Shown: positions 10,614-22,877 of the stretch, piece after piece
How positions within the stretch are numbered: the stretch's first letter is position 1
Layout: every line of letters begins with the position of its first letter
Notes under the pieces: model-generated
Database searches by the model: none
What the model was told of the DNA's origin: nothing
The model's input: the letters and a program-made list of their open reading frames with translations, nothing else
Program-made: the position numbers and the translations under genes
NCBI RefSeq assembly: GCF_002024165.1
Contig: NZ_MWQN01000003.1
Span: forward strand, 744,001 to 808,000
Direction: 5' to 3'
DNA length: 64,000 nucleotides
Origin: Embleya scabrispora
Lineage (GTDB): Bacteria; Actinomycetota; Actinomycetes; Streptomycetales; Streptomycetaceae

Positions 10614-11202
10614 CGGCGCCGCCGCGGACGTATACCTGGCCGACTCCGTCAAGATCGCGGCGAAGATCCTGATCGTGGGGCACTTCGCCGTCGGCAAGAC
10701 CACCTTCGTCGGCACCATGTCCGAGATCCGTCCCCTCAGCACCGAGGAGACGATGACGCAGGCCGGCGCGCACGTCGACGATCTGACGGGCGCGGGACGC
10801 AAGACCACCACCACGGTCGCCCTGGACTTCGGCCGCCTCACCCTCAGCGACCGACTCGTGCTCTACCTGTTCGGCACCCCCGGGCAACAGCGCTTCGCCC
10901 GGGTGTGGAAGGACATGACCGTCGGCGCACTCGGCGCGCTCGTCCTGATCGACCCCCAGCGCTTCGACCAATCCTTCGACGTCATCGGCCTGTTGGAGGA
11001 GTACGACGTGCCCTACGCCGTCGCCGTCAACCGGTTCGACGGCTCCGTCGAACATCCCCTGGAGAAGCTGCGCGCGGCGCTCGACCTGCTGCCGGACACG
11101 CCGCTGGTCACCTGTGACGCCCGCGACCGCGCCTCCTCGACCGAGGCCCTGATGGCCCTCGTCCGCTACCTCCAGCTCCGGGCATCCAAGGAACTCGCGT
11201 GA
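10594..11202 (+). CDS. cvnD: Conservon protein D: small Ras-like GTPase, 202 aa
   Basis: ATP/GTP-binding protein of the MglA/Ras-like type, the switch component of the conservon. G1 is GHFAVGKTT at residues 29-37, G3 is LFGTPGQQR at 92-100, and G4 is NRFD at 146-149, where Arg replaces the usual Lys of NKxD, as in other actinobacterial relatives. Expected location is the cytosol or inner membrane face with CvnB as partner. It overlaps cvnC by 20 bases and the P450 gene by GTGA. Confidence 0.92.
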   Translation: MALPVSDGAAADVYLADSVKIAAKILIVGHFAVGKTTFVGTMSEIRPLSTEETMTQAGAHVDDLTGAGRKTTTTVALDFGRLTLSDRLVLYLFGTPGQQRFARVWKDMTVGALGALVLIDPQRFDQSFDVIGLLEEYDVPYAVAVNRFDGSVEHPLEKLRAALDLLPDTPLVTCDARDRASSTEALMALVRYLQLRASKELA

Positions 11203-12596
11203 ACACTGGGAACACCGGCCCCTTCGATCGATCGGCCCCCTCCCCCGGCGACCACGCCGGCCCTCCCCCCGGCTGCCCCGCGCACGCCGGCGGGGCCCTT
11301 CCCCTGTACGACAAGACGTTCTCCGCCGACCCGCGCGCCGCGTACGAACACCTGCGCCGCCAGGGCGTGGCCGCGCCGGTGGAACTGGCGCCCGGGGTGG
11401 AGGCGATGCTGGTCACCGACCACGCCGCCGCGCTGCGCGTACTGCACTCCCCCGAACTGTTCGCCAAGGATCCCCGCCGCTGGCTCGCGCTGGCCGACGG
11501 CACCGTCCCCGCCGACAGTCCGGTCGTGCCGATGATGATGTATCGGCCCAACGCCCTGTTCTCCGACGGCGCCGAACACCTGCGGCTGCGGCAGGCGGTC
11601 ACCGACAGCCTCGACCGGATCGACCCCTACCAGCTGCGCCGCTTCGTCGAACGCAGCTCCGACTACCTCGTCGACCAGTGGGCGGCCACCGGTCGCGTCG
11701 ATCTGCTGAACCACTACGCCAAGACGCTGCCGCTCCTGGTGTTCAGCGAACTCTTCGGCAGTCCGCCGGAGTTGGGTGACCGACTGGTCGCCGGCATCGC
11801 GGGCATCTTCGACGCGGTGGGCGACGCGGAGGCGGCCAACACGATGTTGACCGGCGCCCTCGTCGAACTCGTCGCGCTCAAGCGCGAACAGCCCGGCTCC
11901 GACGTCACCTCGTGGCTGATGGCCCACCCGAGCCGGCTCACCGACGAGGAGATGATCCATCAACTCGTCATGCTGATGAGCGCGGGCACCGAACCGCAGC
12001 GCAACCTCATCGCCAACGGGTTGCGGCTGATCCTGTCCGACGAACGGTTCTCGGCCAGTCTGTTCGGCGGCGGCGCCTCCGTCGAGGACGCGCTCGACGA
12101 GGTGTTGTGGACCGACCCGCCGATGGCGAACTACGCCGTGCACTATCCGGTGCGGGACGTGGACCTGTCGGGCGTGGTCCTGACGCGCGGCACCCCCGTG
12201 GTGATCAGCTTCGCCGCCACCAACAGCGACCCCGCGCTGATCGCGCACGGCCGCCGCCCGAGCAACCGCTCGCACCTGGCCTGGAGCGCGGGGCCGCACG
12301 CCTGCCCGGCCAAGGACTCCGCCTGGCTGATCGCCACCGCCGCGATCGAAAAGCTGCTCAACCGCCTTCCGGACCTGGAACTCGCGGTTCCGGTGGCCGA
12401 GTTGGACTGGCGGCCCGGCCCGTTCAACCGGGCGCTGACCGCGCTGCCCGCCCGCTTCACCCCGATCGCGCCGCGCCCGGCAGCCCCCGCCGGTCCGGCG
12501 CCCGCCCGCCCCGCCACCGCTGCGGAACACCCGGAACCCGGGGCGCGCAAGGGCGGCGTGTGGAGCTCGTTCCTGAACTGGTGGCGAGGCCAGTAG
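11199..12596 (+). CDS. cvnE: Conservon-linked cytochrome P450, CYP157-like, without the ExxR arginine, 465 aa
   Basis: P450 fold with the haem-binding segment WSAGPHACP (Cys369, with Trp where Phe is usual), an I-helix near 256-270 (MLMSAGTEPQRN) and a K-helix motif E301-V-L-W304. In nearly all P450s this is ExxR; here Trp replaces Arg, which is the known oddity of the CYP157 family found in Streptomyces conservons. Both ends carry Pro/Ala-rich tails. The GTG start overlaps cvnD by GTGA, so it belongs to the operon. Substrate and redox partner are unknown. It may have a signalling or structural role, or act together with the P450 gene downstream. Confidence 0.87.
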   Translation: MNTGNTGPFDRSAPSPGDHAGPPPGCPAHAGGALPLYDKTFSADPRAAYEHLRRQGVAAPVELAPGVEAMLVTDHAAALRVLHSPELFAKDPRRWLALADGTVPADSPVVPMMMYRPNALFSDGAEHLRLRQAVTDSLDRIDPYQLRRFVERSSDYLVDQWAATGRVDLLNHYAKTLPLLVFSELFGSPPELGDRLVAGIAGIFDAVGDAEAANTMLTGALVELVALKREQPGSDVTSWLMAHPSRLTDEEMIHQLVMLMSAGTEPQRNLIANGLRLILSDERFSASLFGGGASVEDALDEVLWTDPPMANYAVHYPVRDVDLSGVVLTRGTPVVISFAATNSDPALIAHGRRPSNRSHLAWSAGPHACPAKDSAWLIATAAIEKLLNRLPDLELAVPVAELDWRPGPFNRALTALPARFTPIAPRPAAPAGPAPARPATAAEHPEPGARKGGVWSSFLNWWRGQ

Positions 12597-12848
12597 CCCT
12601 ACTCCCACCCCGCGCACCAGGCGGGCGGCACCACCCACCACCGGTGCCGGCGTCGCGGCCCGGGAGGCTCACCCGCTCCCGGGCCCGGCCTCGGCGCGCC
12701 CGAACGAGGCGGCGGCGCACGCGTGCCGCATGCCCCGCCCGACAACCGCAGACACCCTTCCTCGTCGGCCGCCCCATCCCGGCCGCCCGATCGATCAGCG
12801 CTGTGCCGAGCCGTCCGCCGACGTCGTGTCGAGTTCGAAGGAGCCGTC

Positions 12849-14102
12849 GTGCAGTCTTCCGCATCACCCACCGTCGTCGACAGCAGAAGCGTCGTCGCCC
12901 TGTTGTCCCGCCTGCGCTCCGTGGCCGGGCAGGCGGATCCCCTGCCGCTCTACGCCGGTTTACGGGAGATGGGTGACGTCGTACCCGCGCCCTGGGGCGG
13001 CTACCTCGTGACCCGCTACCGCGCCTGCGACGAGGTGTTGCGCAGCCCCGACTGGCTCGCCCTGGACCATGCGTGGCGCGCTCGACAGTCCGACGACTCC
13101 CGCTGGTCGACCCCGTCCTCCCGCGAACTCGAACAAACGCTGGTGGCGCTGAATCCGCCCGAGCACACCAGGGTTCGCAGATCGGTGAACACCATCTTCG
13201 ACCGCGCCACCCTCGAGGCGCTGCGCCCGAAGGTGCGCCGGGTGGCGAACACACTCCTCGACACCCTGATCGAGCAGGCCGGGGACGCCGACGCGGACTT
13301 CGCCGAACTCGTGGGCGAACAACTGCCGGTGGCCACCGTCGGACACTGGCTCGGCGTGCCCCCCGAGGACTTCGACCTCCTGCGCTCCCTCACCCACGCC
13401 CAGGCGTACGCCCAGGAGTTGCTGCCCGTCAAACGCCAACTCCGCGCCGCCGACGAGGCCATCCGCGGTCTGCGCGCCTACTTCACCGCCCTGGTCGCAC
13501 GCCGCCGGGCCGAGCCCGGCGACGACGTGATCTCGGCCTGGCTGCGCGCCTGGGACGCACTGGAGCCGGATCGCGATCTCGCCGACGAACAGGTCTACGC
13601 GCTGGCCATGTTCACCGTCATCGCGTCCCTGGAGACCACGTCCACCCTGCTGTCCACGATGGTCTGGACCCTCGACCGGCATCCGCGACAGCGGGCCTGG
13701 CTGCGCGCCCACCCGATGGCCCTCGCCGACGCCGTGGAGGAGGTCTTCCGCTACGACCCGCCGATCGCCGTGACCACGCGCTACGCGGGTAGGGACCTGG
13801 TGTTGGCCGGGATTCCGATCGCGCGGGGCGAGGTGGTGCACACGATGCTGGCCTCGGCGAACCACGACCCGTCCCTGACCCCGGACGCAGCCGCCTTCGA
13901 CGTCACGCGCCGGGCCCGGCACATCTCCTTCGGCGGCGGCATCCACTACTGCATCGGCGCCGGCCTGGCCCGTCTGGAGGCCGGTCTCCTGCTCGAGGCG
14001 ATACTGCGCCGGTTGCCCGCACTTCGGGTCACCGCGCCGCCGACATGGGAACCCCGACTGGCGTTTCGGCGGATCACCGCGATGCGGGTGAGCGTGCGCT
14101 GA
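12849..14102 (+). CDS. Cytochrome P450, CYP154-like, 417 aa
   Basis: Monooxygenase with a full set of P450 motifs: I-helix FTVIASLETTST, K-helix EEVFR (E and R near 297-300) and haem segment FGGGIHYCIGAGLARLEA (Cys near 367). The GTG start at 12849 is chosen because AAGGAG lies 5 bases upstream; the frame is open for 42 more codons upstream with poor composition. It sits 252 bases after the CYP157-like gene, the same pairing seen in Streptomyces conservons, where CYP154 members hydroxylate steroid- or polyketide-like compounds. A 13-bp hairpin follows. Unlike its partner it has the normal catalytic architecture. Confidence 0.88.
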   Translation: MQSSASPTVVDSRSVVALLSRLRSVAGQADPLPLYAGLREMGDVVPAPWGGYLVTRYRACDEVLRSPDWLALDHAWRARQSDDSRWSTPSSRELEQTLVALNPPEHTRVRRSVNTIFDRATLEALRPKVRRVANTLLDTLIEQAGDADADFAELVGEQLPVATVGHWLGVPPEDFDLLRSLTHAQAYAQELLPVKRQLRAADEAIRGLRAYFTALVARRRAEPGDDVISAWLRAWDALEPDRDLADEQVYALAMFTVIASLETTSTLLSTMVWTLDRHPRQRAWLRAHPMALADAVEEVFRYDPPIAVTTRYAGRDLVLAGIPIARGEVVHTMLASANHDPSLTPDAAAFDVTRRARHISFGGGIHYCIGAGLARLEAGLLLEAILRRLPALRVTAPPTWEPRLAFRRITAMRVSVR

Positions 14103-16334: not shown

Positions 16335-19004
16335 CTACGGGTAGTACGGCGACGCGGTCAGGTAGGAGAGTCGGAAGCCCTTGTCGGCCGGCGCGCCGGT
16401 CGCGGTGTAGCAGGCCAGGTACATCAGGACGTCGTCCTTGGTGCCGTAGTCGTTGCGCAGCACGGTGGTGCAGTAGCCGCCGCCGACGGCCGTCAGGTGG
16501 GCGTAGCTGGTCAGGTAACCGACCGTCAGGTGCAGTGTGTAGCGGCCGGTCGCGGTGCGCGTCACGTCGGCCGAACCCGGTCGGGACATCCACGATCCGG
16601 TGATCGTCGGCGCGGCGCCGCCGGGTGCGTCGGCGACGGTCAGGTGTACCGCGTGCGGGACCCGGGTGTCGTCGAGCGGGCTCTGCCGGCCGGTGTGGCT
16701 CAGGGTGAACGCGGTGTCGGCCGGCGCGCCGCCATGGGTGGCGCAGGCCACGGACGCGGTGCCGCCGGCGAGCGCGGTGAGCGCGCAGTGCCGAGGCGTC
16801 GTCCCGACCGGTGAGACCTGGACGGATTCCGTGTCCGCCGCGACCGCCACCGCGTAGCGTCCGGTGCCGGTACGGGTCACCGCACCGGTGTTCTGCCGGG
16901 ACGCGGCGGCGGGGAGTTGGCGGGCGGCGGCCGGCTCGTCGGCGTGGACGTATCCGCGCGAACTCGCCTGCTGGTAGGGGCCGTTGCGGTCGCCGGCGAG
17001 GAAGAGTCCGGTGAAGGGGATGTCGGCGGGGGTGCCGGTGCGGTCGAAGCAGGCCACCTCGACGCGCTCGTCGGTGCCCTGCGGCCACCACCGCACGGGT
17101 TGGCAGGACACGCCGTTCGCGGCGTAGTCGGAGACCGAGACGTGCGCGATGCCGCCGGGGGCGGCGCTGTCCGGGAGGATCACCACGTGCCGGCCGACGG
17201 CGGTGTGGGTGACGCGTACGGTCTTGACCACGGGTGGGTTGCCGAGGCGCCGGATGCCGTAGGTCCAGTTCGGTTCGTGGCTGTCCGGGCGTTGCGGGGT
17301 GGGGGTGAGTTCGCGGGTGGTGCCGATCGGGTCGTCGGCGTAGCGGACCATCCAGAAGCCCCAGGTGGCCGGCACGGGGGTGGGGGCGTTGGCTCCGCCT
17401 CCGTTGCCTCCGTTGCCGCTGTTGCCGCCGTTGCCTCCGGCCCCGCCGCCGCCGATCGGTGCGGCGCCGGTGTCGCTTCGGCCGCCCGTGCCGGGTGTGC
17501 CGGTGGGGCCGTCCGGATCGGGGTCGCTCTCGCCGCCGGGCGTCGCCGCCGCCCCGTCCGGGGGCGTCGGGCCGCCGGGCAGCCGGTCCGACGGGACGTC
17601 CGTCGGGGTGGGACTCGGGGGCGGGGTTTCGTCCGCCACCGCCTTCGCCGCCCCGCCCGGACCGGTGGCGCCGGGGGCCGCCGAGGGGCCGGCGGACGGC
17701 CGGGCGGACGGGGTGTGCGCGGAGTCGGGCGCGACGGCCGACAGGGTCAGGGCCGCCGCGGTGGCGAGCGCGACGGCCGTGCCGCCCACGCGCACCGCCA
17801 ACGGATTGTCCGCGGCGATTCGGGTCGCGGTGTTCACCGCCGGCGCGACGCCGGGGACGCGGAGCAACCGGTGCAGGACGGCATCGCGTGCGGCACGCGT
17901 CGCGGTGAGCGCGGGCCGCACGATCCGGACGACACTGCCCGACGCGCCGGGATCGGCGGCCGCGGCAGCGACGTCCAGGGCCGGGACGGGTGCCGCCATC
18001 GGGACTTCGGTCGCGGCCTCGGCCGTGGTCGCCGGCCGCCCCGTCCACCAGGCCACCGCCGCGCGGCGCCGCTCGTCGTCGTCCTCGCCCTGCCGGGCCG
18101 CCGCCAGGGCGAGCCCCGGTCCGAGCACCCACGTGCGCTGGACGATGGCGTCCTTGGCCACGGCGGAGCAGGTGGGACAGGTCGCCGCGTGGGTGCGAAG
18201 GACGCGATACTCCGCCCGGGTCGGCACCAGGCCGGAGGCGATCTCCTCGGCCGCGAACAGTCGTGCGAGTCCTTTGACTTCGGCCGCCGCCGAGCAGGAG
18301 AAGCGCATCGAGCGCGCCGCCGCGAGCAGTCCGACCCGTTCGCGCACCTTCTTCAGGCCCCGGCTCAGTTCGCGGTCGACCCGAACCCGGGGCCAGCCCA
18401 GACGCGCCGCGAGTTCGGCCCCCTTCACGGGGCGCATCTCGGCGAGCGTGTGGTCCAAGTGCGCGCTCACCACCGTGCGTTGGGTCTGCGACAGCGCGTC
18501 GGTGGCGGTGTAGAGCGCGGCGAACGCCTGGGTCTTGCCGTAGGCGTGGCCGAGGTCGCCGCCGGGCGCGGACACCTCGGAAAGGGTCGTCTTCTTCGCG
18601 TCGTCGGGCGGGATGTCCTCGTCGACCGGGCGATCCGCGGCACGTTGCCGTGCCCTCAGTTCCGCCATCCATACGTGCTTGGCGATGCCCCACAGCCACC
18701 GGTCGACGCCCCGGGTCGGCTTCAGGTCGCGGGCGATTCCGTCGAGCGCGCGGACGAACACCTCGCTGACGCAGTCGTCGGCCTCCGCCGCCGACGGCAA
18801 CTTCGCCCGGAACCAACGGGCCAGCGCATCGTGATGCCGCTCGTACAACGCGACGCGGGCGGCCTCGTCGCCGTCGCGCAACAGCTGCCACGTGTCGTCG
18901 GAAGCGCCGTCGGGATCCGCGTCCGGATCCTCGGCCCACAGGCTTTCCGGCAGCCCCCGCTCCGACGACGAGTCCCCGGACGGGTCCGGTCCGATCCGTG
19001 TCAT
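16335..19004 (-). CDS. ECF sigma factor fused to anti-sigma-type zinc motif, membrane segment and extracellular modules, 889 aa
   Basis: Single chain with clear parts. Residues 38-225 form an ECF sigma factor: region 2 (VALYERHHDALARWFR...DDCVSEVFVRA, then the DRWLWGIAKHVW promoter-melting part) and region 4 near 165-222 (LSQTQRTVVSAHL, LGWPRVRVDRELSRGLKKVRE). At 272-279 lies HAATCPTC, exactly the H-x3-C-x2-C signature of zinc-binding anti-sigma domains. A single membrane helix spans about 404-426. A Pro/Thr then Gly/Asn-rich linker (430-545) leads to about 340 extracellular residues with three repeats of the type T-x-TG-x-Y...C...C...G-x-PAD-x-x-F. The expected state is a sigma factor held at the membrane by its own chain and freed by proteolysis or a conformational signal. 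Related fused ECFs are known in actinobacteria; this module set I do not recognise. It is divergent from the DUF3592-like gene. Confidence 0.87.
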   Translation of the reverse strand: MTRIGPDPSGDSSSERGLPESLWAEDPDADPDGASDDTWQLLRDGDEAARVALYERHHDALARWFRAKLPSAAEADDCVSEVFVRALDGIARDLKPTRGVDRWLWGIAKHVWMAELRARQRAADRPVDEDIPPDDAKKTTLSEVSAPGGDLGHAYGKTQAFAALYTATDALSQTQRTVVSAHLDHTLAEMRPVKGAELAARLGWPRVRVDRELSRGLKKVRERVGLLAAARSMRFSCSAAAEVKGLARLFAAEEIASGLVPTRAEYRVLRTHAATCPTCSAVAKDAIVQRTWVLGPGLALAAARQGEDDDERRRAAVAWWTGRPATTAEAATEVPMAAPVPALDVAAAAADPGASGSVVRIVRPALTATRAARDAVLHRLLRVPGVAPAVNTATRIAADNPLAVRVGGTAVALATAAALTLSAVAPDSAHTPSARPSAGPSAAPGATGPGGAAKAVADETPPPSPTPTDVPSDRLPGGPTPPDGAAATPGGESDPDPDGPTGTPGTGGRSDTGAAPIGGGGAGGNGGNSGNGGNGGGANAPTPVPATWGFWMVRYADDPIGTTRELTPTPQRPDSHEPNWTYGIRRLGNPPVVKTVRVTHTAVGRHVVILPDSAAPGGIAHVSVSDYAANGVSCQPVRWWPQGTDERVEVACFDRTGTPADIPFTGLFLAGDRNGPYQQASSRGYVHADEPAAARQLPAAASRQNTGAVTRTGTGRYAVAVAADTESVQVSPVGTTPRHCALTALAGGTASVACATHGGAPADTAFTLSHTGRQSPLDDTRVPHAVHLTVADAPGGAAPTITGSWMSRPGSADVTRTATGRYTLHLTVGYLTSYAHLTAVGGGYCTTVLRNDYGTKDDVLMYLACYTATGAPADKGFRLSYLTASPYYP

Positions 19005-19252
19005 GGCACCCTCCGCAACGGCGACGCGACTTCGTCACCAGCGACGTGTCTCGGGGGAGGCGAATCTCTCCATCTTCGCGCGACCGATTATCCGCCGGCG
19101 TGCGGCCGTCGGCCCGGGAAAAGCGCATATCACGACCGAAACGATGAAATCGGCGCCCGCAAAAGATTCCCGACCGAAAAGTGGAGAGATTCCCCGGCGC
19201 CCGACCACGTACCGGACAAGTCGACACCGGTACACCCCGAAGGGCGGCCATC

Positions 19253-19747
19253 ATGCGCGACCATGCGCACTCCTTCCTCGTGGCACGGCAACTCGTCGTG
19301 GTCCTCGGACCGTTCGTCATCCTCCTGATCGCCCTGCGGGTCCACTACCTGCGCCGGTGGGGCATCCGCACGAACGGCACCGCCGTATCCACCTTCCGCG
19401 AGCGCCGCACCCGGCGCGGCAGCGACCCCGACCGCATCCGCGACGACGTCTACTTCGTGGACATGACCGTCGTCGAGTACACCGCCCACAACGGCATTCC
19501 GTACCGCTGCACGGTCGAGGGCCGCCACCGCGCGGGCTCACCGGTCGCCCTGGTCTACCCGCCGCGCAGCCCGCACCGCGCGAAGGCCGCGGCGGCGGCC
19601 TCCTACGGCCGGGTGGTCGTCGCGATCGTGACCTACACGATCCTGGTGGTCGGCCTCTCCTACATCGCACACCGGGTCGACGACCAGGTCGACGATTTCT
19701 GCACACCCCTGACCCCGGCGGCCCGTACCTTCCACGACTGCCCGTAG
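19253..19747 (+). CDS. DUF3592-like membrane protein, 164 aa
   Basis: Two hydrophobic segments, one near residues 11-30 (VARQLVVVLGPFVILLIALRV) and one near 121-140, flank an extracytoplasmic or cytosolic beta-rich domain with the DUF3592 pattern: G-T-A-V near the start, a Y-x-A-x-N-G-x-P-Y-R-C strand, then AGSPVALVYPPRSPHRA. The ATG at 19253 follows AAGGG by 8-9 bases; upstream codons in the same frame are not needed. It starts 248 bases from the divergent sigma-fusion gene and could be one of its targets (inference only). Function unknown. Confidence 0.68.
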   Translation: MRDHAHSFLVARQLVVVLGPFVILLIALRVHYLRRWGIRTNGTAVSTFRERRTRRGSDPDRIRDDVYFVDMTVVEYTAHNGIPYRCTVEGRHRAGSPVALVYPPRSPHRAKAAAAASYGRVVVAIVTYTILVVGLSYIAHRVDDQVDDFCTPLTPAARTFHDCP

Positions 19748-22213: not shown

Positions 22214-22442
22214 GCAACAATGAAGCAACCCCACAACATCACCCCCCTGAACTCTGTCCCCGGCCACCCCACCACCCCTCACCCGGCCTGGAAACATGAA
22301 TCGATCGGGGCGAGGTCGCCGCCGGGACGGGTGCGCGTAACCCGCCCGGGGGTGCGGGCGTTAGGGAAGGTGCGGCCTTTGCCCACGGCTGCGTGGGGTG
22401 TCCTCGGCCTGTACGTATGTGCGCACGCATCGGGAGTCTTCA

Positions 22443-22877
22443 GTGGTGCTTCGTGGTCTCGCCGTGTCCGCCCTGGTCCTTGCCGTAGGGCCGTGCCTGG
22501 CTCCCGCCGCCCTGGCCGACTCGGCGCCCGGCGCGACCGGCGCCTCCGGGATGGGGGACCGGCTGACCGTCACCGTCACGGACGTTCCCGGCGGGGCGGG
22601 GGTGTACACGCTGGAGTGCCACCCCGCCGGCGGCGGCCATCCCGCGCCCCGGCAGGCGTGCGACAGGTTGGACTCCGTGACGATGTCGGGCAGGGACCCG
22701 TTCGCGCCCGTGCCGCAGGGCGCGCTGTGCACGATGATCCACGGCGGACCCGCCGCCGCGCACATCACCGGCGTATGGGCGGGCCACCCGGTGGACGCCG
22801 CGTTCGACCGGACCAACGGTTGTGAGATCACCCGGTGGGACGACCTCGTCCCGGTCCTGCCGAGGGTGGGCGGCTGA
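22443..22877 (+). CDS. Subtilisin-inhibitor-like secreted protein (SSI family), 144 aa
   Basis: Secreted proteinase inhibitor, a family abundant in Streptomyces culture fluids. A Sec signal peptide (hydrophobic core VSALVLAVGPCLAPAALA, ADS-type cleavage) precedes the SSI fold: LTVTVTDVPGGAGVYTLECHP, QACDRLDSV, GRDPFAPVPQGALCTMI, then GVWAGHPVDAAFDRTNGCEITRWD. The four mature Cys give the two usual disulfides. The reactive-site loop reads C-T-M-I, so P1 would be Met and P1' Ile, close to the Met-Val of classical SSI. The GTG at 22443 is chosen because GGGAG lies 6 bases upstream; an ATG at 22398 would only lengthen the signal peptide. Confidence 0.88.
   Translation: MVLRGLAVSALVLAVGPCLAPAALADSAPGATGASGMGDRLTVTVTDVPGGAGVYTLECHPAGGGHPAPRQACDRLDSVTMSGRDPFAPVPQGALCTMIHGGPAAAHITGVWAGHPVDAAFDRTNGCEITRWDDLVPVLPRVGG

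Follow-up and report, generated by a model that had tools for sequence, protein, structure and literature searches.

The closest described systems are one-chain sigma factors of Actinobacteria that carry their own anti-sigma part. The overall layout is already known from the ECF52 and ECF53 proteins, of which SCO4117 of Streptomyces coelicolor is an example. SCO4117 consists of a sigma factor, a zinc finger, a membrane region, a Pro-rich stretch and a carbohydrate-binding domain, and its deletion delays sporulation and actinorhodin production (PMC5826349). A strain with the sigma domain alone also sporulates late, yet earlier than the deletion strain (PMC5826349). According to a review, ECF48, ECF52 and ECF53 are expected to be released by proteolysis, and the sole characterized release of a fused protein named there is that of IutY (ECF243, Pseudomonas putida), a sigma/anti-sigma membrane protein that is released by Prc and RseP (PMC8999054). 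Membrane proteins that join a sigma factor to its anti-sigma part are found repeatedly in these bacteria.

How does the Embleya protein compare with these systems? The protein encoded by Embleya scabrispora is real and of known architecture; its outer part differs, its sigma lineage is unplaced, and a candidate private promoter pair accompanies the gene. The gene lies in the analyzed stretch of 64,000 nucleotides (hereafter, the window) and has the following parts.

16335-19004, minus strand: whole sigma-fusion gene, 889 aa; open frame, orthologues intact
18630-18893, minus strand: sigma region 2 (residues 38-125); Pfam Sigma70_r2, model compared with solved region 2
18321-18524, minus strand: sigma region 4 (residues 161-228); Pfam match below threshold, A3 profile against SigW, dN/dS 0.10-0.18
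18093-18320, minus strand: zinc anti-sigma-like domain (residues 229-304; C237, H272, C276, C279); exact motif, invariant ligands, fused relatives
17727-17795, minus strand: likely membrane helix (residues 404-426); hydropathy peak shared in position by three orthologues
17370-17726, minus strand: Gly/Pro-rich linker (residues 427-545); sequence, dN/dS 0.49-0.92
16338-17369, minus strand: outer module (residues 546-889); exported relatives, dN/dS 0.28-0.36
16992-17225, minus strand: outer repeat 1 (residues 594-671; C634, C652); repeat alignment, conserved in orthologues
16689-16886, minus strand: outer repeat 2 (residues 707-772; C740, C754); repeat alignment, conserved in orthologues
16356-16571, minus strand: outer repeat 3 (residues 812-883; C845, C865); repeat alignment, conserved in orthologues

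As in ECF52 (SCO4117), an ECF sigma factor, a putative zinc finger, a membrane region, a Pro-rich stretch and an outer domain are combined in one chain, and a separate anti-sigma gene is not needed (PMC5826349). Judged by its composition, linker 427-545 serves as the proline-rich extension that is one feature of ECF52. ECF53 and ECF48 share with the Embleya protein the fused, zinc-finger-like anti-sigma part with one or two membrane helices, and some ECF52 and ECF53 members bear predicted glycosyl hydrolase or carbohydrate-binding domains, closeness being judged from the published descriptions (PMC8999054, PMC10766802). Unlike SCO4117, the Embleya protein has an outer domain that is not NPCBM and a far diverged sigma part, and its gene neighbors differ from the atrA context described for SCO4117 (PMC5826349). 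Neither the whole protein nor its outer part gave a Pfam match to NPCBM or another carbohydrate-binding domain. IutY differs from the Embleya protein in that the outer repeat module is absent. Among the titles and abstract openings listed for ECF52, ECF53, ECF48, fused ECF proteins and Embleya, there is no description of the Embleya protein or of its outer module on a sigma factor.

The single 889-residue chain of the original prediction corresponds to an intact frame. The minus-strand frame at 16335-19004 starts with ATG and runs for 889 codons without an internal stop, and the gene is also unbroken in two other Embleya, encoding 950 aa in Embleya scabrispora DSM 41855 (L003) and 977 aa in Embleya sp. 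NBC_00888 (L091). A frameshift or an assembly error is ruled out because the gene is unbroken at three loci. A search of the genus found full-length matches in two of four Embleya genomes (G000 and G002), the second of which encodes at L004 the same 950-aa protein as L003, and only weak sigma hits in G001 and G003, the latter consisting of 1650 contigs.

The predicted order of parts, from the sigma factor through the zinc motif, helix and linker to the outer repeats, is reflected in the conservation of the three orthologues. Over the three orthologue pairs, dN/dS is 0.10-0.34 in sigma region 2, 0.10-0.18 in sigma region 4, 0.25-0.28 in the zinc domain, 0.19-0.24 in the membrane helix and 0.28-0.36 in the outer module, whereas linkers 126-160 and 427-545, like the N-terminal tail, show higher values of 0.49-1.28. 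Low values in the sigma regions and the outer module, together with high values in the linkers, form the pattern expected of separate working domains. C237, H272, C276, C279 and the six Cys residues of the outer repeats are invariant in the three orthologues; C78 is not. The most hydrophobic 17 residues ahead of the outer part, as judged by hydropathy only, coincide with the helix position in all three orthologues, in agreement with the proposed single membrane helix, and the hydrophobic stretch of L091 contains one Asp.

The ECF sigma factor assigned to the N-terminal part is confirmed by Pfam Sigma70_r2 at residues 53-121 (E=3.5e-9, above the cut-off) and by a profile, A3, whose match to solved SigW extends over both region 2 and region 4 (E=4.8e-12). 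A3 comprises three rows, namely the Embleya protein, its orthologue and a distant relative that is a more typical sigma factor (L031). The region 4 assignment leans on L031, because A3 includes it and the Pfam match to region 4 by itself is below the cut-off (E=0.012). AlphaFold models of the cytoplasmic part (58.3) and the outer part (mean pLDDT 49.8) were built from two sequences each, and the cytoplasmic model is trusted for region 2 only. Modeled region 2 resembles a solved sigma region 2 (4lup, TM 0.84 by target length, Foldseek E 0.23), and the cytoplasmic model as a whole had no Foldseek match in the PDB at E 0.001 or better. Among plasmid records, the sigma/zinc part retrieved a single match from Embleya; another 412 matches were weak (E up to 1) and came mostly from Klebsiella. 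The best non-Embleya match among the 20 listed is a sigW/anti-sigma stretch of Anoxybacillus (E=0.002).

The sequence HAATCPTC at residues 272-279 is, as claimed, an exact H-x3-C-x2-C motif. Together with C237 as the upstream fourth ligand, H272, C276 and C279 make up the ligand pattern that defines class I zinc anti-sigma domains. The Pfam zf-HC2 model scores the Embleya protein below its cut-off (E=0.29), as it does the SCO4117-type protein L036 (E=0.0074). A Cys residue stands 20-38 residues ahead of the motif His in 41 of 42 motif-bearing fused rows, compared with 4 of 42 in a control stretch, where the rows were picked for holding the motif, include the three orthologues and are related rather than 42 independent events. 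The Cys-to-His spacing is 35 in the Embleya lineage versus 22-31 in the other fused rows with a Cys in range. The exact motif is not universal in fused proteins, given that it is missing from a subset of the relatives, such as the first frames of L083, L084 and L085. An AlphaFold check of the packing between the zinc and sigma parts used two sequences only and gave a pLDDT of about 33-72 in the zinc part. A built-in anti-sigma-like zinc domain is supported by the exact motif, the ligands invariant in three orthologues and the matching fused relatives. Consistent with a built-in domain, the predicted absence of an adjacent anti-sigma gene holds by Pfam on the neighbors: no anti-sigma gene directly adjoins the sigma gene, the neighbors belong to other families, and the divergent 164-aa gene has no zinc-finger match. 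A putative fused relative, L009, was dropped since its sigma and zinc motifs sit in two different frames and represent a separate pair.

What would the zinc domain do in this chain? RsrA is a redox or zinc sensor with a ligand set like C237, H272, C276 and C279. By analogy, the Embleya zinc domain could be a cytoplasmic redox or zinc sensor, with the outer module merely positioning the protein at the surface. The shared ligand set favors such a role; however, conservation of the outer module equals that of the zinc domain (dN/dS 0.28-0.36 versus 0.25-0.28), and a mere anchor needs no such conservation, which makes this alternative quite improbable. We instead favor a zinc domain that most likely keeps sigma regions 2 and 4 of the same chain inactive in the cytoplasm.

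Fused ECF/anti-sigma proteins are, as stated in the original prediction, an established type in actinobacteria, being represented by ECF52 and ECF53 and by long fused frames in the order. The A3 profile has matches in 80 of 80 genomes of the order. Many of the matches listed are ordinary sigma factors, and a good number of the others are long frames with sigma region 2, H-x3-C-x2-C and then a membrane helix. The genome that contains the window encodes at least three other fused proteins, one on L014 (642 aa) and two in neighboring frames on L079 (551 and 669 aa). Two fused sigma/membrane frames lie side by side in this genome, as they do in several members of another family (L079:1702-5428, L080:1892-5577 and L082:900-5281, among others), and the first frame of such adjoining pairs often lacks the exact zinc motif. 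SCO4117-type proteins exist in the family, and one of them (L036) carries NPCBM at E=1.7e-28. In another (L034), Gly/Ala-rich repeats that total several hundred residues separate the zinc domain from the predicted helix.

Filing the Embleya protein under ECF52 was not adopted, because the carbohydrate-binding domain is absent and a tree leaves the lineage unplaced. This tree covers the sigma-to-zinc part of 64 rows, which remained after the omission of redundant copies, several plain ECF rows and then six more far rows; it was built by a quick method with long-branch warnings, and SCO4117 itself is not among the rows. The Embleya trio diverges at an open fork, and its branch is 2.42 changes per column long. 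Constrained groupings of the trio with the SCO4117-type proteins (p-AU 0.612), with the other fused clade (0.717) or with L031 alone (0.433) were not rejected. Under the first two of these constraints, the trees outscored the free tree, indicating that the free search was not exhaustive. The sigma fusion of the Embleya lineage may therefore have arisen apart from ECF52.

The outer part departs most clearly from the described systems. Residues 546-889 contain three repeats, whose pairwise alignment scores are 50 for repeats 1 and 2 (shuffled mean 26.3, reached by 1 of 1000 shuffles), 62 for repeats 1 and 3 (22.7, 0 of 1000) and 80 for repeats 2 and 3 (27.1, 0 of 1000). Of the motifs ascribed to every repeat, the Cys pair and G-x-PAD do occur in all three, but T-x-TG-x-Y is limited to repeats 2 and 3, and TAVGRH takes its place in repeat 1. 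The conserved Cys pairs suggest that disulfides form within the repeats. None of the Pfam or NCBIfam models reached its cut-off on the module, and none of the Pfam models did so on its relatives. Likeness to Dr-family adhesin (E=0.35), DUF4851 (0.077) and LWXIA (0.036) lies below the cut-offs and differs between two orthologues, and we take it as chance. A fold search with the outer-part model yielded nothing to keep and no Foldseek match at E 0.001; the best match of the module profile among solved structures (E=0.19) is to unrelated enzymes, and phage records gave no match to the module.

The module is found in 5 of 41 genomes searched, including G000 and G002, and a wider profile finds it in 7 of 79 genomes of the class, including the Embleya genome of the window and, marginally, G133. 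Plasmid records with the module comprise one Embleya orthologue and five others (one Nonomuraea, four Streptomyces). WP_176145641.1, WP_134663904.1 and WP_331740348.1, annotated as 369-aa 'hypothetical protein', are stand-alone exported relatives. These and other exported three-repeat actinobacterial proteins (L088-L090, L092, L095, L103 and L105-L108) share the module, mostly over its whole length, with the Cys pairs. They differ from the Embleya protein in being free, lipoprotein-like or the tail of a metalloprotease-like protein, and in having no sigma factor. Lipobox-like starts are visible by eye in L106 and L107, and in Nonomuraea gerenzanensis (L092:2583-6071, plus strand) the module forms the tail of a protein that carries the metalloprotease motif HELGHSLGLDH, whose peptidase matches in Pfam are below threshold.

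A hydrophobic stretch resembling a signal peptide, lipobox or anchor precedes the module in 13 of 13 non-Embleya relatives above threshold, a count that has no shuffled control, takes starts that are not fixed, includes two near copies (L096 and L103) and leaves out L109 as below threshold. These exported relatives are the best support for an extracellular module in the Embleya protein as well, and they bear out the earlier proposal that the outer part lies across the membrane. The original prediction mentioned neither the recurrence of long fused frames in the order nor the occurrence of the module in secreted proteins. The module profile found no sigma frame with the module outside the Embleya orthologues among the frames examined. 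As far as these sequences go, an actinobacterial exported-protein module is thus joined to a sigma factor only in Embleya, which is new. The Embleya protein also provides a handle on an exported module that is unrecognized by the Pfam and NCBIfam models used.

How could an outer module of this kind control the sigma factor? A single helix would anchor the chain, and a flexible linker would hold the three repeats of the module outside the cell. Once the module meets a surface ligand or stress, proteases would cleave the chain and thereby set the sigma part free. Proteolytic release is proposed here from the ECF52 model and from IutY. IutY itself belongs to an iron-signaling system of a Gram-negative bacterium with an outer-membrane receptor. 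M50 site-2-type proteases are encoded at two places in the Embleya genome and are likewise present in 14 of 14 control genomes. Alternatively, the sigma factor might work, or be held, at the membrane without any release, with the module altering the grip of the zinc domain through the helix. One chain with one helix would permit such coupling; however, related architectures set a precedent of proteolysis (PMC8999054), and the long, fast-evolving linkers fit cutting better than rigid coupling. We regard a permanently tethered sigma factor as unlikely. Could cleavage instead serve above all to release the outer module as an exoprotein, in the manner of its free relatives, with the freeing of sigma tied to this shedding? 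The module is indeed stand-alone and secreted in other species, but the own genome has no free copy of it at E<=0.001, and we consider this scenario very improbable. Proteolytic release of the sigma part remains the preferred reading, and its targets are suggested by the DNA between the sigma gene and its divergent neighbor.

19253-19747, plus strand: divergent gene, 164-aa likely membrane protein; weak likeness to DUF3592/DUF7269, below cut-offs
19064-19078, minus strand: element CGAAN{1,3}TGGAGAGAT, copy 1; faces the sigma gene, 59 bases before its ATG
19175-19190, plus strand: element CGAAN{1,3}TGGAGAGAT, copy 2; faces the divergent gene, 62 bases before its ATG

The two copies are inverted and face outward in the stretch common to the back-to-back sigma and 164-aa genes. 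CGAAN{1,3}TGGAGAGAT occurs once per strand, both times at the sigma locus, in each of G000, G002 and the 5.7-Mb record NZ_CP108785.1, and a reversed control pattern has no match in any of the three. The pattern was drawn from the same sites, and the result lies not in their presence but in their absence elsewhere and their keeping at three loci. A paired outward-facing element in the divergent promoter region, unique to the locus in two genomes and one record, is new. The ungapped form with up to three mismatches finds only the plus-strand copy in the window (0.34 expected by chance), the minus-strand copy being one base shorter. A homologue of the divergent gene is present in L003/L004 with 71% identity over 164 residues. 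At about 5194-5541 of L091 (minus strand), only residues 49-164 of its product are found in a single frame; the first 48 codons, start included, have probably been lost there, while the sigma gene and both elements are kept.

With the two matching elements as its sites, freed sigma would probably target the promoters of its own gene and of the divergent membrane-protein gene. Taken jointly, we hold it somewhat more probable than its negation that the Embleya protein is a membrane-held one-component sigma factor with a zinc brake, surface-triggered proteolytic release and action on its own and the divergent promoter. Retention of the element in L091, where the divergent gene has lost its start, counts against this explanation. 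Divergent genes frequently share operators, and the paired element may instead be the operator of another regulator, or some other site, rather than a promoter of this sigma factor. The element is one conserved block, as opposed to the two spaced boxes expected of an ECF promoter, and one copy overlaps a terminator-like hit (1 found versus 0.5 expected). Such features give an operator a substantial chance, if one short of even. Against it, both copies are oriented alike relative to the gene that each precedes (in the window, 59 and 62 bases ahead of the ATG), and the genome has no further sites for a separate regulator. A scan for sigma-70 promoters found none (0 hits).

If the element is a promoter of the freed sigma factor, a narrower and more tentative proposal, which we would put clearly on the doubtful side, is that a secreted-protein module became a receptor and that the sigma factor targets only its own and the divergent gene through the twice-occurring element. 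In that case, the module's free relatives would be proteins that bind the envelope or the surface, and the fused protein would relay such binding to transcription. The target is perhaps readable from the DNA through the unique paired element, and the sensor module also exists as a free secreted protein; ligand, release and promoter are therefore each testable with small constructs. The surprise is limited, yet the locus is easy to test, and its outer part and matched element pair make it a good test case for how fused sigma proteins sense the cell surface.

By Pfam, the other neighbors include bioA-like, bioB-like and aldose-epimerase-like genes. The last of these comes next both in the window and in L091 and was not found in the L003 stretch, and bioA and bioB were found in neither the L003 nor the L091 stretch. 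The surroundings are not constant across loci, indicating that the sigma and divergent genes keep together more than their surroundings do. Further along the window, the frame at 22398-22877 (plus strand) encodes a small protein that matches the subtilisin-inhibitor family (SSI, E=4.8e-10). A cytochrome P450 gene lies at 12723-14102 (plus strand; Pfam E=7.1e-20), and the frame before it, at 11199-12596, resembles another P450 by eye.
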